From positions 1,537,029 to 1,601,028 of the forward strand of contig OX638350.1 of the NCBI GenBank assembly GCA_951813325.1: DNA of 64,000 bases, written 5' to 3'. The translations under genes and the position numbers were made by a program. This DNA is from an uncultured Acidimicrobiales bacterium (GTDB lineage Bacteria; Actinomycetota; Acidimicrobiia; Acidimicrobiales; Bin134). The notes beneath the pieces are model-generated. The model saw nothing but the letters and a program-made list of their open reading frames with translations, was not told the origin of the DNA and made no database searches. The first letter of the stretch is position 1, and each line of letters starts with the position of its first letter. This document shows positions 35,567 through 55,773 of the stretch, piece after piece.

Positions 35567-36118
35567 CTAGAGATCGGGTTCGGACCATGCGCCGGTGGCA
35601 TCGTCGAAGGCCCGGGCTGCGGCGGTCATCCACTCTTGCCGCCCCTGGCGGGCGCCGCTGGAAGACATCGGGCCCAACTCGGCGGCGACGAGCAGCTCGG
35701 CGCCTTCGGGCACATCCAACGGAGGCCGGGGAGCAATGGCCAGCTCCAATTGGCAGAGGGCCTCCACCGCCTGATCGCGGGCTTGCGCTGAGTGGCCGTA
35801 GAATGCCGGATCCAGTACTTGGGCCCACTTATCGGCGCCCATGACCACCACGTGGTATCCCCGGGCGATATCCACGAGGAGCTGGTGGTCGGTCACCGCT
35901 ACCTCCAAGCCGTCGATGTCGGCGACCGACGCCTCAAGCACCGCTATGCGATCTTCGAATGCTGGACGGCCCACGACTTCTTTTCCCAGCGCCACCCGCG
36001 ACACCACGAGGTCCACCCGGTCGAGCCGCCGCTGATCCCTTGCCGCTTGGGCAATGGCCAGATGACCGACGGTCGGCGGGTTGAACGAACCCGGATACAC
36101 CCCTAACCGTCTTGTCAC
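35567..36118 (-). CDS. Cytidylyltransferase-fold nucleotidyltransferase, NadD-like
   Basis: A 183-residue nucleotidyltransferase with VYPGSFNPPTVGHLAIA, the nucleotide-binding (T/H)xGH motif, and near the C-terminus MSSSGARQG, matching the ISSTxxR phosphate-binding motif. The family includes nicotinate-nucleotide adenylyltransferase and CoaD. The middle resembles NadD only loosely, so it could act on another mononucleotide. The GTG start at 36118 abuts the divergent ilvB promoter (its -35 overlaps the start), so expression of the two may interfere. The stop lies 9 nt from the ilvD repeat array. Confidence 0.82.
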   Translation of the reverse strand: MTRRLGVYPGSFNPPTVGHLAIAQAARDQRRLDRVDLVVSRVALGKEVVGRPAFEDRIAVLEASVADIDGLEVAVTDHQLLVDIARGYHVVVMGADKWAQVLDPAFYGHSAQARDQAVEALCQLELAIAPRPPLDVPEGAELLVAAELGPMSSSGARQGRQEWMTAAARAFDDATGAWSEPDL

Positions 36119-50708: not shown

Positions 50709-51479
50709 GTGCTCATAGTGGACACCCATACTCACGTGATCTCTGACAACCATGAGAAATACCCCCTTCAGGTGGCCGACTACCCGGGGGTGGAGTGGGT
50801 GTACCACGCCCCAGTGACGGCTGAGGAACTCAAGGCTGAGATGGCCGTCGCTGGGGTCGACCGGGCCGTACTCGTGCAGGCCCAGGGCGGCTACGGCACG
50901 GACAACTCCTATGTGGTGGACGCTCGGGCCGCCTATCCCAAGACCTTCAGCGCGGTGGTCATCGTGGACGACCCCGCCGAACTCGACTCGCTGGCCGCCG
51001 CCGGGGCGGGTGGGGTGCGGTTCTTCGCCATAGGCGGGGGAGGGCCGCTGCACGAAGAGGCAACTTGGGACACTGCGAGGCGGCTCGGCCTGCGGGTCAG
51101 CGCAGCCACGGTGCCCGAGTACCTGCCCGCGCTGGCCGAGGCAGTGGCCGCTCATCGTGATGTGATCCTGGCTCTTGACCATTGCGGGTTCGCTCCTGAA
51201 TCGATTGGCGATTACGCCCATCTGGCGAATCTCTATTTGAAAGTCACCCCCCATGTGCTTGACACAGGCGATGGCAATCCAGGTCCAGCGCTGGAACGAC
51301 TGGCCGAGCAGTTTGGGCTTGACCGACTGATGTGGGGTTCTGATTACTCCCAGACCCATGATCGGCCCTATGGAGAGCTGGCCGACGAGGCGCGAGCGGC
51401 CTGCGCTGGGCTGAGTCAGAGCGAGCAGGCTCAGTTTTTGGGTGGCACGGCGCTGGCCCTTTGGCCCGAATTGAACTAG
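50709..51479 (+). CDS. Amidohydrolase-2 family metal-dependent hydrolase
   Basis: A 256-residue TIM-barrel hydrolase of the ACMSD/TIM-barrel amidohydrolase 2 family. The first metal motif is IVDTHTHVISD; the later DHCGF and GSDYSQTH supply a His and the last Asp. It is shorter than most members (about 280-330). These enzymes hydrolyse lactones or decarboxylate acids. The stop overlaps the crotonase at 51476 on the other strand by 4 nt. Confidence 0.85.
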   Translation: MLIVDTHTHVISDNHEKYPLQVADYPGVEWVYHAPVTAEELKAEMAVAGVDRAVLVQAQGGYGTDNSYVVDARAAYPKTFSAVVIVDDPAELDSLAAAGAGGVRFFAIGGGGPLHEEATWDTARRLGLRVSAATVPEYLPALAEAVAAHRDVILALDHCGFAPESIGDYAHLANLYLKVTPHVLDTGDGNPGPALERLAEQFGLDRLMWGSDYSQTHDRPYGELADEARAACAGLSQSEQAQFLGGTALALWPELN

Positions 51480-52315
51480 TCGATTTCCAACATCTGATCG
51501 ACCACCGCGGCCAATGCATCAGGGTCGCGCTCAACTTCTCGAGTCTGGCCGCCGGCGTCGAGGAAGCGCTGCATCAGCGGCACGTGCTGGCCGGTAGCCG
51601 AACAGGCCATCATCGCCTGGGTCTCGGCCAACAGTCCTGGTTCCACCGGCCCCAAGGCAGCGTCAACCGCCTGTTTGGCCTGGGCTATTGACAATCTCGG
51701 CGAGGCGGCAATTCGGCGGGCCACTCGGGCGGTGTGGGACCGGAGCTGGTCGGAGGGCAGCACCCGGTTGACGTAGCCGATGGCCTCAGCCTCCTCGGCG
51801 GTCACGTCGTTGCCCGACAAGACGATCTCCAGCGCCCGGCTGCGGCCAACCAAGCGGGCCAGGCGTTGGGTGCCGCTGGCTCCGGGGATGATGCCCATGG
51901 CCACCTCGGGCTGGCCGAGCACGGTGCGGGGACCGGCGAAGCGCATGTCGAGCGACAGCAGGAACTCCGACCCGCCGCCCCGGGCCACGCCGTCGACCAT
52001 GCCGATGGTGGCCACCCCGATGGTGCGGCACCGGTCGAACGTGGCCGCGGCCATGTTGGGCTCTGTGGGCACATCAGCCGGGGCCTCCATAGCCAGGATC
52101 TGCTCCACATCGCCGTGCATCAAGAAGAAGTCAGGATCGGCGCTCTCAAATACCAGAACCCCTACTTCCTCATCAGCCTCGACCGCGTTCAGCAGGCCAA
52201 ATAGCCCGCCGATCAATTCGCCATCCACCAATTGCTTGGGCGGATGGTCGATCAATGCCCAGCCAATCCCTTTGTCGACGGCCATCTTGAAGGGTCCGAA
52301 ACTCTGCTCACTCAC
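51476..52315 (-). CDS. Enoyl-CoA hydratase/isomerase family protein (second)
   Basis: A 279-residue crotonase: PPKQLVDGELIGGL, the oxyanion segment DFFLMHGDVEQIL, GMVDGVARGGGSEFLLSLDMRFAG and VAMGIIPGASGTQRLARLVGR. It has a Gly-rich loop and RALEIVLSGNDVTAEEA, as in the family. GTG 52315 overlaps the end of the upstream nitroreductase gene by 8 nt, so the two are co-translated. It differs much from the crotonase at 49755. Confidence 0.9.
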   Translation of the reverse strand: MSEQSFGPFKMAVDKGIGWALIDHPPKQLVDGELIGGLFGLLNAVEADEEVGVLVFESADPDFFLMHGDVEQILAMEAPADVPTEPNMAAATFDRCRTIGVATIGMVDGVARGGGSEFLLSLDMRFAGPRTVLGQPEVAMGIIPGASGTQRLARLVGRSRALEIVLSGNDVTAEEAEAIGYVNRVLPSDQLRSHTARVARRIAASPRLSIAQAKQAVDAALGPVEPGLLAETQAMMACSATGQHVPLMQRFLDAGGQTREVERDPDALAAVVDQMLEID

Positions 52316-52922
52316 CGTGGTCCTCCCACTGGTTCCAATACGCAACTTCAGACAATGGCCGCCGGCGCACTGGGCCGAATGGCACCGCGGGCCAGCCCAT
52401 CGGGATGCCGCACACGATGTGGGCTTCATCGGGGATGCCGAGCACGGCCCGCACCTCGTCGGCCCGGAAAGTGTGCAGCGTGGTCAGCACCGTGCCCAGG
52501 CCCAGGCTGCGCGCGGCTACCAGGAGGTTTTGCACCGCAGGGTAAATCGAGTGGCTCACCCCCCGCTGGGTGGAGCACACAATGATGAACACCGGCACAT
52601 CGCCCACCTCCCGGGCGAACTTGGCAGCCTTCTCGACGATTTCGGCCTCCTGGTCTCTCAGCCACTCGCTGCCCGCGGCCGGGTTGTTGTACGACTGCTG
52701 TTGGGCGTCGAGGTACAGCTCCCCCAGTTGGCGGCGCTTGTCGGGATCGGTGACCACCACGAAGCGGGTGAATTGGCCGTTGATGGCGCTGGGGGCGCGG
52801 ATAGCCGCGTCCAGCACCTTGGTGATGAGCTCGTCGGGAACCGGGTCGGCCCGATAGCGCCGTACCGCCCGCTGGGTGTGCATGGCCTCGAACACGCCGA
52901 CCTCGGCGGTCGTTTGATTCAT
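52308..52922 (-). CDS. Nitroreductase-family FMN oxidoreductase
   Basis: A 204-residue nitroreductase: MHTQRAVRRYRADPVPDELI, AIRAPSAINGQFTRFVVV and the C-terminal ARSLGLGTVLTTLHTF, GIPDEAHIVCGIPMG, typical of FMN-binding NfnB/BluB-like proteins. Substrate unknown. I choose ATG 52922 because a -10 box TACTGT (52930-52935, complement) is 7 nt upstream; longer in-frame starts would run into the divergent Rdx gene. Confidence 0.87.
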   Translation of the reverse strand: MNQTTAEVGVFEAMHTQRAVRRYRADPVPDELITKVLDAAIRAPSAINGQFTRFVVVTDPDKRRQLGELYLDAQQQSYNNPAAGSEWLRDQEAEIVEKAAKFAREVGDVPVFIIVCSTQRGVSHSIYPAVQNLLVAARSLGLGTVLTTLHTFRADEVRAVLGIPDEAHIVCGIPMGWPAVPFGPVRRRPLSEVAYWNQWEDHGE

Positions 52923-52929
52923 GGGCTGG

Positions 52930-52935
52930 ACAGTA
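52930..52935 (-). promoter_or_regulatory. Leaderless -10 box of the nitroreductase gene
   Basis: TACTGT on the complement, 7 nt before the ATG at 52922. It faces away from the Rdx promoter at 52975, so the 64-nt gap is a divergent promoter region. Confidence 0.55.
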
Positions 52936-52974
52936 GTTGCAGCCGGGGTGGTAGTAGTCACCCCGCGCCGGCGA

Positions 52975-52980
52975 TAGTCT
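52975..52980 (+). promoter_or_regulatory. Leaderless -10 box of the Rdx/SelW-like gene
   Basis: TAGTCT, 6 nt before the ATG at 52987. The spacing equals that at eleven other starts in the window and supports a start upstream of both in-frame UGA codons. Confidence 0.6.
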
Positions 52981-52986
52981 GCACCC

Positions 52987-53259
52987 ATGGCGCACAAGCA
53001 CCGCATCACGATCACCTATTGAGTTCCTTGAGACTATTCCGAGCACGCCGTGAGCGCTGCCCAGGATCTGCTTCAGAACTACCAGCACATCATCGAGGAT
53101 CTGGCTCTGGTGACCGGTGCGTCGGGCATCTTCGACGTGGAAGTCGACGGTGAGATGCTGTACTCCAAGGACGACTGCTGCCGCCACGCCGAACCCGGCG
53201 AGGTGCTGAAGCTCTTCGCCGACCAGTACGCCAGCGAGGTGCTGCGCTACGGGACATAG
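52987..53259 (+). CDS. Rdx/SelW-family protein, candidate selenoprotein with two UGA-encoded Sec (UxxU)
   Basis: Read straight through two TGA codons (53020-53022 and 53029-53031), the frame gives 90 residues beginning MAHKHRITIT and continuing YUVPUDYSEHAVSAA. This matches the Rdx (SelW/SelT/SelH) thioredoxin-like fold: a first strand, a redox CxxC motif here written U12-V-P-U15, a helix, GIFDVEVDGEMLYSK and the C-terminal PGEVLKLF. Both stop codons fall on the two redox cysteines and nowhere else. An extra Cys pair (C64, C65) follows the SK motif. The start is backed by a leaderless -10 TAGTCT. A start at GTG 53050 would lose the first strand and active site. A bacterial SECIS hairpin should follow the UGA codons; I see only a weak candidate (CAC-GCC-GTG, 53044-53052, apical loop about 25 nt after the first UGA). 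Alternative: a pseudogene with two nonsense changes. Sec machinery is not in the window. Confidence 0.8.
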
Positions 53260-53273
53260 CGCCGGGAGCCGCG

Positions 53274-53279
53274 TAGGCT
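53274..53279 (+). promoter_or_regulatory. Leaderless -10 box of the P450 gene
   Basis: TAGGCT, 6 nt before the GTG at 53286, so the P450 can be transcribed separately from the Rdx gene just upstream. Confidence 0.55.
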
Positions 53280-53285
53280 GCGGGC

Positions 53286-54536
53286 GTGGACGGTGTCACA
53301 GTCGATTTCGATCATCAGATGCCGGAGTTCGTCGCCAACCGCCATAGCCGCTACCACGAGCTGCGGGAGCGCTGCCCAGTGGTGTTCAACGAGCACTACG
53401 GAGGGTTCTGGATGGTCACCGACTACGAGTCGGTGGCGGCGGTAGCCCGAGACAACGAGACATTTGCCCACAAGTACGAGCCCGACGCCCCCGACGGCCT
53501 CTCCTATATGGGCATCTGCGGCATTCCCCGCCCGGGCTATATACCCCGCCAGGGGGTGTCGGAAATCGACGGGCCGGAGCACGCCGATCTGCGGCGAGTA
53601 CTGAATCCGCTCATGACCATCAATGCGATGGAGAGAACCCGACCCCGGATGGAGGCGGTGTCGGCGTGGTTCCTCGATGAGATCGTCGAGGCCGGCGCGG
53701 CCGATCTGGTGTTGGACTACACCACGCCGGTTCCCGCCGTGCTGACGCTGGAGATGATGGGCATGGTCTCGTCGAACTGGCAGCACTACGCCGATTTTTT
53801 CCACGCCACCTCCTCGTATGAGCCCTCCGACGAGCGGTACCTCAGTGCGGTGGCCCGCCAACCAGACATGTGGGGCGAGCTGCGCGACTTCGCCCAATTC
53901 CGCCGGGAAAATCCGGCTGACGATGTCACGACGGCACTGGTTTCCTCGCCGCTCGACGGCCGGATGCTGAGCGACGACGAGATCACCGCCATCATGTGGA
54001 ATCTGGTGGCCGGGGGCCTCGATACCACCACCTCGCTGGTGTCGTGGGGCCTGCACCACCTGGGCACCCATCCGAAGGACCGCACTCGCCTCATCGAGGA
54101 CCCGAACCTGATCCCCGCGGCGGTGGAGGAGTTCCTCCGCCACTACAGCCCCAGTGAGACCCTCACTCGAACCGCCACCCGAGATGTGGAACTGGGCGGT
54201 CGCCAAATCCGGCGGGGCGACGTGGTGTTCATCAGTTGGGTGACGGCCAACCATGATCCGGCGGCGTTCGATGCCCCCGACGAGGTGCGCATCGACCGCG
54301 AGGTGAACAAGCACTTGGCGTTCGGGCTGGGCGGCCACCGCTGCATCGGCTCGTCGATCGCCCGCATCGAGTCGGAGCTCATGATGAGAGATGTCCTGGC
54401 CCGCATCGGCGACTATCAGATCGACGTCGACGGGTTCAAGCCCTATCCCGGCAACCTGCTGATGACCGGCGTGGTGTCGATGCCGGTTGCCTTCACCCCC
54501 GGGGTTCGCTCAGGCGCGGCCGACCCCTTCGTCTGA
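53286..54536 (+). CDS. Cytochrome P450
   Basis: A 416-residue soluble bacterial P450. The oxygen-activating I helix is AGGLDTTTS (242-250), the ExxR motif is in EEFLR (282-285) and the heme-thiolate Cys is C353 in FGLGGHRCIG. P450s of this class hydroxylate lipids, steroids or terpenes with electrons from a ferredoxin; no ferredoxin gene lies next to it. The GTG start is 26 nt after the Rdx stop. Confidence 0.95.
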   Translation: MDGVTVDFDHQMPEFVANRHSRYHELRERCPVVFNEHYGGFWMVTDYESVAAVARDNETFAHKYEPDAPDGLSYMGICGIPRPGYIPRQGVSEIDGPEHADLRRVLNPLMTINAMERTRPRMEAVSAWFLDEIVEAGAADLVLDYTTPVPAVLTLEMMGMVSSNWQHYADFFHATSSYEPSDERYLSAVARQPDMWGELRDFAQFRRENPADDVTTALVSSPLDGRMLSDDEITAIMWNLVAGGLDTTTSLVSWGLHHLGTHPKDRTRLIEDPNLIPAAVEEFLRHYSPSETLTRTATRDVELGGRQIRRGDVVFISWVTANHDPAAFDAPDEVRIDREVNKHLAFGLGGHRCIGSSIARIESELMMRDVLARIGDYQIDVDGFKPYPGNLLMTGVVSMPVAFTPGVRSGAADPFV

Positions 54537-54570
54537 GCGCTCAAGCAACCCCAGACTGATGGGGTCCGGG

Positions 54571-55773
54571 CTAGCTCAACCGCTCGACGATCATGGCCAT
54601 GCCCTGGCCGCCGCCCACGCACATGCTCTCCACGCCGATGGTCTTGTCGGCGTCTTCCAGCCCGTTCAAGAGCGTGCCCATGATGCGAGCCCCGGTCATG
54701 CCGAAGGGGTGACCCAAAGCGATGGCGCCCCCGTTCACGTTGAGCTTGTCGTAGTCGATGCCCAACCCGTCGGCCGAGGGGATCACCTGGGCGGCGAATG
54801 CCTCGTTGATCTCCACCAGGTCGATGTCGTCGATGGTCATGCCCGCCCGCTCCAACACCTGGGAAATGGCCGGAATCGGGCCGAGGCCCATGATCTCGGG
54901 GTTCACCGCGGCCACACCCGTGGCCACGATCCGAGCCAGCGGCTTGACGCCCAGCTCGGCGGCCTTGGTGTCGCTCATCACCACCACGGCGGCGGCGCCG
55001 TCGTTGAGGGGACAGGCGTTGCCCGCAGTGACAGTGCCGTCGGGGCGGAACACCGGCTTGAGCTGGGAAACCTTCTCGATGACCGTGCCCGCCCGGATGC
55101 CGTCGTCGTTGCTCACCAGCGTGCCGTCGGCCAGCGGAAACGGGGTGATCTCCCGCTCGAAGAACCCCCGAGCCTGGGCGGCCTCGGCCCGGTTCTGGGA
55201 CATGACGCCGAACTCGTCCTGGCGTTCACGGCTCACGTTCCAGGCCTGGGCCACGTTCTCGGCGGTTTGGCCCATGGCGATGTAGATGTCGGGCAGACCT
55301 TCGGGGGGCGACCATGTCGGCGTGCCCTCGCCCGTGCGCTCGGCCGATCGGGCCTCGGCCTCGGCGAACTTGTCGTTCTTTCCACCCCGGTCGGAAGCTC
55401 CGGCCGCGAAGCGGCTCACGCACTCCACTCCGCCGGACACGAACACATCACCCTCTCCAGCTCGAACCGCGTGGGCAGCCATGCGGATGGTCTGAAGCGA
55501 CGAGGAGCAGTAGCGGTTGACGGTTACGCCGGGCACATCCAGGCCAGCCAGAAGCCCCGACAGCCGGGCGATGTTGTAGCCGGCCTCGCCCGCGGGCTGG
55601 GCGCAGCCCCACATCACGTCCTCAACGTCGGATCCGTCGATCTGGGGGACCTTGCCTAGCACGTCGCTTACGATGAACGCCGACATGTCGTCGGGACGGA
55701 CGTCGACCAGCGATCCCTTCACGGCCCGTCCGATGGGCGTGCGGGAGGTGGCGACGATGACTGCTTCGGGCAT
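54571..55773 (-). CDS. Acetyl-CoA C-acyltransferase (thiolase)
   Basis: A 400-residue thiolase. The acyl-accepting Cys is C89 in VNRYCSSSLQT; the second catalytic group is His in NGGAIALGHPFGMTGAR and Cys in SMCVGGGQGMAM. Such enzymes cleave 3-ketoacyl-CoA in beta-oxidation or run the reverse. A Shine-Dalgarno AGGAG precedes the ATG. It is 48 nt from, and co-directional with, the amidohydrolase gene at 55822. Confidence 0.94.
   Translation of the reverse strand: MPEAVIVATSRTPIGRAVKGSLVDVRPDDMSAFIVSDVLGKVPQIDGSDVEDVMWGCAQPAGEAGYNIARLSGLLAGLDVPGVTVNRYCSSSLQTIRMAAHAVRAGEGDVFVSGGVECVSRFAAGASDRGGKNDKFAEAEARSAERTGEGTPTWSPPEGLPDIYIAMGQTAENVAQAWNVSRERQDEFGVMSQNRAEAAQARGFFEREITPFPLADGTLVSNDDGIRAGTVIEKVSQLKPVFRPDGTVTAGNACPLNDGAAAVVVMSDTKAAELGVKPLARIVATGVAAVNPEIMGLGPIPAISQVLERAGMTIDDIDLVEINEAFAAQVIPSADGLGIDYDKLNVNGGAIALGHPFGMTGARIMGTLLNGLEDADKTIGVESMCVGGGQGMAMIVERLS

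Follow-up and report, generated by a model that had tools for sequence, protein, structure and literature searches.

The gene at 52987-53259 on the forward strand of the window, by which we mean the whole 64,000-nt stretch that was analysed, is very probably a real selenoprotein gene that encodes a bacterial Rdx (SelW-like) thioredoxin-fold oxidoreductase with selenocysteine (Sec), a rare amino acid, at both redox positions (UxxU), and that form goes back to a single origin from a CxxU ancestor. The frame runs from an ATG to a TAG at 53257-53259 and contains exactly two stops before that TAG, both TGA, at 53020-53022 (UGA 1, proposed Sec12) and at 53029-53031 (UGA 2, proposed Sec15). With TGA read as U, the translation of 52987-53259 gives a product of 90 residues, MAHKHRITITYUVPUDYSEHAVSAAQDLLQNYQHIIEDLALVTGASGIFDVEVDGEMLYSKDDCCRHAEPGEVLKLFADQYASEVLRYGT, in which the two U residues are the two active-site positions of the family CxxC/CxxU motif (Y-U-V-P-U). 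When Cys was placed at both TGAs, residues 6-76 of the product matched the Pfam family Rdx (PF10262; SelT/SelW/SelH) with 57.3 bits against a cut-off of 22.6, and TIGR02174 was matched with 42.6 bits against a cut-off of 34.2. The NCBIfam model NF041051 (SelTWH_Campy) gave 64.3 bits, below its cut-off of 88, which places the product outside that subfamily, and as Rdx was the only Pfam match the product is not a member of the Prx-like SelL family either. The confident AlphaFold2 model (pLDDT 85.5) has the thioredoxin-like Rdx fold with the motif (residues 12-15) lying between strand 1 (5-11) and helix 1 (18-35), and the nearest solved structures are the bacterial SelW-like proteins 3dex and 2fa8 with TM 0.80-0.82. 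This is the sole Rdx gene in the single-contig genome of 3.59 Mb, and the genome search returned the same two TGAs. The first-pass annotation, made from the letters of the DNA, had read the frame as an Rdx gene with its only two stops at the motif Cys positions and had predicted that standard annotation would begin it at 53050; the translation and the two profile matches bear out the first reading, and mechanical calling of open reading frames does indeed start the gene at GTG 53050, so that in standard annotation it would be missed or truncated there.

The genome carries the machinery that a selenoprotein requires. A tRNA-Sec with anticodon UCA was found at C1:3377792-3377883 (67.5 bits against a gathering score of 47), SelB (299 bits) and SelA (397 bits) are adjacent at about 3.360-3.363 Mb and both are above their cut-offs, and SelD is at C1:2952029-2952973 (357 bits). 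The selD gene has an in-frame TGA of its own within SHGAGUAGKLG (locus L087, position 1531), a segment which we take to be the known active-site region of SelD, and thus SelD of this genome is, as read from its gene, itself a selenoprotein. SelA was found in all six of the genus members tested. In one other species with the UxxU gene (G252), a draft of 40 contigs in which SelA is present, no tRNA-Sec was found above the Rfam cut-off; this is probably a gap in the draft and would otherwise be puzzling. Judged by its gene content the organism can decode Sec, as had been proposed, and the absence of the machinery from a complete genome, which had been named among the results that would speak against the proposal, was not what we saw in this single-contig assembly.

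Both TGAs and the frame around them are conserved. In a scan of one genome per species 22 relatives were found, of which 14 retain both TGAs and 8 are CxxU. These 14 further two-TGA loci come from other assemblies and amount to 13 distinct sequences, or 14 with that of the window, and in all of them the frame is unbroken on either side of the TGAs. Among 44 aligned sequences codon 15 is TGA in 44/44, and codon 12 is TGA in 14/14 distinct UxxU sequences and TGC or TGT in 30/30 CxxU relatives; thus, at the first position the homologues have U or C and at the second they have U. The third-position bias is present on both sides of the motif: 120 of 209 substitutions before UGA 1 and 807 of 1534 after UGA 2 fall at third codon positions, which is the pattern that translation of the whole frame would produce, and this agrees with the coding character that the first-pass annotation had seen before and after the TGAs.

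Among the Acidimicrobiia genes that were read, the UxxU form is confined to one genus. In the window's own family, for which 22 species were sampled, all of one genus, 16 species are UxxU, 4 are CxxU and 2 gave no match; all 20 matches were read, and those with two TGAs are UxxU and those with one are CxxU. A second single-contig genome with the UxxU gene is OX638344. In the sample of the class a match was found in 154 of 395 genomes, and the Rdx genes outside the UxxU set were all CxxU where they were read. Other genes of the class that had been flagged with two TGAs (G254, G204 and members of one family of 1-Mb genomes) also turned out to be CxxU where read, their second TGA being at or near the C-terminus and apparently the stop codon. 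A phylum-wide search with the pattern Y-U-x-x-U-x-[YF] gave, apart from the window, only chance-like matches, no relatives were found in the viral contigs searched, and the matches on plasmids were distant, all being less than 60% identical. The product is 62-70% identical to CxxU relatives of the same class. In the protein tree the UxxU members form one clade (support 95/92) beside a CxxU pair of the same genus (L032 and L033), and the support was 95/90 when the loop columns were omitted and three sequences were added. A single clade of UxxU members makes one origin from CxxU, inside one genus of Acidimicrobiia, the most likely course, and by the sequences compared this would have been a single base change from TGY to TGA.

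A SECIS-like hairpin (GCACGC-CGUGA-GCG-c-UGC) lies downstream of the two codons at 53043-53060 on the forward strand, with its loop at 53049-53053. The loop starts 17 nt past UGA 2 and 26 nt past UGA 1, and the published bacterial SECIS model, whose consensus we used for comparison, has a distance window of 16-37 nt (PMC13188914). Because both distances fall within this window, one SECIS could serve both UGA codons. The hairpin has six pairs with one bulge and a CGUGA loop, and its folding energy is -8.9 to -9.5 kcal/mol (-8.9 for 53032-53066); the segment 53032-53066 is no more stable than shuffles of equal composition (z -0.5). As the folding energy alone is no better than that of shuffles, we base the SECIS call on conservation and position. 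Three core pairs are kept in 44/44 of the aligned sequences and the CGUGA loop in 42/44. The codons of residues 21-23 do not vary synonymously, A21 being GCC in 44/44, V22 being GTG in 44/44 and S23 being AGC in 42/42, with GGC for Gly in the remaining two, and all the other well-conserved fourfold and sixfold codons of the gene vary. In the outer stem of the CxxU set there are compensatory swaps between G-C and A-U and between C-G and U-A, and 63 of 84 cells are paired compared to a shuffle mean of 54.7, with none of 2000 shuffles as high; since these pairing and codon counts include related sequences they are to be taken as support and not as a probability. Slid registers of the outer stem showed no comparable excess of pairing. 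In the UxxU set a one-base bulge lets A-U, C-G and G-C pair outside the core in 14/14. The search for a SECIS downstream of the UGAs, which the first-pass annotation had recommended, thus yielded a hairpin at the distance required by the published model with both synonymous constraint and compensatory pairs.

Upstream of the gene a -10-like box, TAGTCT, is present at 52975-52980 on the forward strand, 6 nt before the ATG, as had been noted earlier, and it is conserved as TAG[TC]CT with the same spacing in all 14 UxxU genes. The downstream neighbour, a conserved cytochrome P450-like gene at 53286-54536 on the forward strand, has the same box spacing (TAGGCT at 53274-53279, start GTG 53286). These TAGnCT boxes 6 nt before the Rdx and P450 starts suggest, from their placement in the DNA, leaderless or near-leaderless transcripts. 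On the other side lies a divergent nitroreductase-like gene at 52308-52922 on the reverse strand, which is found in the same place in 14/14 of the UxxU loci tested with 86-95% identity; no match to it was found beside CxxU genes, and as far as is known it stands outside the UxxU mechanism. The block from 50709 to 55773 holds amidohydrolase-, enoyl-CoA hydratase- and nitroreductase-like genes, the UxxU Rdx gene, and P450- and thiolase-like genes, the names of the neighbours having been assigned by reading their translations; it is conserved at 14 UxxU loci, and the CxxU relatives are without those neighbours. Separately, a crude scan of the window gave further in-frame TGAs with coding-like flanking composition at 35789 (+), 24477 (+) and 23998 (-), which are possibly due to chance or to overlapping frames.

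Several other explanations of the two TGAs were weighed. Had UGA been reassigned in this lineage, for example to Trp, the frame would likewise be open and the gene would be an ordinary one, but 4 of the 10 evident genes around it end in TGA as an ordinary stop and Trp is coded by TGG throughout, and therefore UGA has not simply been reassigned; together with the Cys at position 12 of the relatives and the complete Sec machinery this refutes the idea, to which we give practically no weight. The same negligible weight goes to a decaying pseudogene or a sequencing error in which TGC was read as TGA. Damaged genes can show two nearby stops, but here the same two TGAs with an otherwise intact frame are present in 16 species from separate assemblies, the synteny is conserved and the substitutions are of the purifying type, so that the relatives refute it; sequencing error and a frame broken elsewhere in relatives, both of which had been listed in advance as grounds for giving up the reading, were not seen. 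Translation from GTG 53050, which is the longest standard open reading frame of this frame and would give a Sec-free protein of 69 residues with the region upstream as an untranslated remnant, is highly improbable. Such a product would have neither strand 1 nor any of the redox motif. The 11 codons that precede UGA 1 keep their frame and show third-position bias, and both the start codon and the -10-like box are conserved. GTG 53050 itself lies inside the invariant hairpin, so that the SECIS explains its conservation.

What has somewhat more in its favour, though we still consider it unlikely, is that UGA 2 alone is decoded efficiently and UGA 1 mostly terminates translation, thereby acting as a selenium-dependent brake, in which case the UxxU arrangement would be partly regulatory and not catalytic. 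Two successive UGAs must reduce the yield, and UGA 1 is farther from the loop than UGA 2. However, both distances are inside the published range, and UGA 1 coincides precisely with the catalytic Cys. All UxxU members have retained it and also have the new loop Cys, which points to catalysis as the likely reason for its presence. From the gene and its relatives we infer that both UGAs are decoded as Sec.

Bacterial SelW-like proteins are listed as CxxU only in two recent reviews and in a survey of marine metagenomes (PMC13188914, PMC9312934, PMC2398784), and in our literature search no report of a bacterial UxxU Rdx/SelW protein was found. The first-pass annotation knew of no double-Sec form of a bacterial Rdx protein; this agrees with the bacterial tables, but in the family as a whole the motif has a precedent in the UxxU SELENOW proteins that were described for amphioxus and Ostreococcus lucimarinus (PMC7539508). 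Compared by description, these proteins share the family and the double-Sec motif with ours, but they are eukaryotic and were reported as isolated cases, whereas here 16 bacterial species make up a clade and the SECIS is of the bacterial type, inside the reading frame. In eukaryotes the SECIS sits in the 3' UTR. With the bacterial CxxU SelW-like proteins (PF10262; those of marine metagenomes and, in Acidimicrobiia, L032 and L033) the UxxU proteins have in common the family, the fold, the second Sec and the SECIS hairpin, and they differ from them in having Sec for the first Cys, a Cys at 64/65 or 66 that replaces the TGR loop sequence, and other neighbours. The closest solved structures, SAV_2001 of Streptomyces avermitilis (3dex) and Atu0228 (2fa8), with E 1.4e-13 and TM 0.80, are Cys forms (CxxC) at the motif. 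According to PMC2397514, which cites Shchedrina et al. 2007, SelL is a Prx-like protein with UxxU and a demonstrated diselenide; on that description it shares UxxU in a thioredoxin-like fold and offers a model for diselenide chemistry, but it is from another protein family. Further selenoproteins with UxxU in bacteria are a Prx-like thiol:disulfide oxidoreductase, a putative mercuric reductase/metal-binding protein and an FmdB-family protein (PMC13188914, PMC9312934), which also have two Sec three codons apart but are of unrelated families. As far as the literature search shows, what is new is that the form occurs in bacteria, that a clade has conserved it, that one SECIS would reach the two codons and that a loop Cys goes with it.

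This additional thiol is at Cys64-Cys65 in the product (53176-53181, forward strand). A Cys at 64-66, in the loop after strand 3, is restricted to the UxxU proteins, where it is found in 14/14 (at position 64, in some also at 65, or at position 66), and a Cys beyond the motif was found in 0/30 CxxU proteins, the Cys at position 1 printed for L038 falling upstream of its start codon. The loop that follows strand 3 is on the active-site side in the thioredoxin fold, and by its position the loop Cys could act as a resolving thiol. Because the UxxU proteins are one clade on the tree, the association of the loop Cys with UxxU is a correlation that reflects no more than one or two events.

A probable course of events is that in the CxxU ancestor the hairpin, 17 nt past the old Sec codon, would already have reached codon 12 at 26 nt; with an existing SECIS within reach of codon 12, one base change would have sufficed for UxxU. 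SelB with Sec-tRNA-Sec on the single hairpin would then read both UGA 1 and UGA 2, and the protein would shuttle between diselenol and diselenide, a scheme modelled on SelL although that is a different family. By analogy, the Sec pair may cycle in this way or form a selenosulfide with loop Cys64/66, and a thiol/peroxide redox role, as proposed for CxxU family members, may be expected. Going further, it is conceivable, and we offer this tentatively as somewhat short of an even chance, that a dedicated Rdx enzyme with two Sec has evolved in the clade, with one SECIS directing both insertions at a spacing of three codons and with the loop Cys acquired at 64 or 66 resolving a Sec12-Sec15 diselenide. 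If this were true, it would be a three-chalcogen redox centre of a kind undescribed for the SelW family.

The group that carries the UxxU Rdx gene is one of marine actinobacteria, and to judge from the genes it appears to have Sec at both active-site positions of this protein. With this gene, a family that has been tabulated in bacteria as CxxU alone acquires a bacterial UxxU form, and the gain of Sec from Cys is placed on one branch with CxxU sisters within the same genus. An existing SECIS in reach would be a simple reason why this gain was possible, and the protein of 90 residues may serve as a small system for studying double-Sec insertion in bacteria and diselenide redox chemistry.
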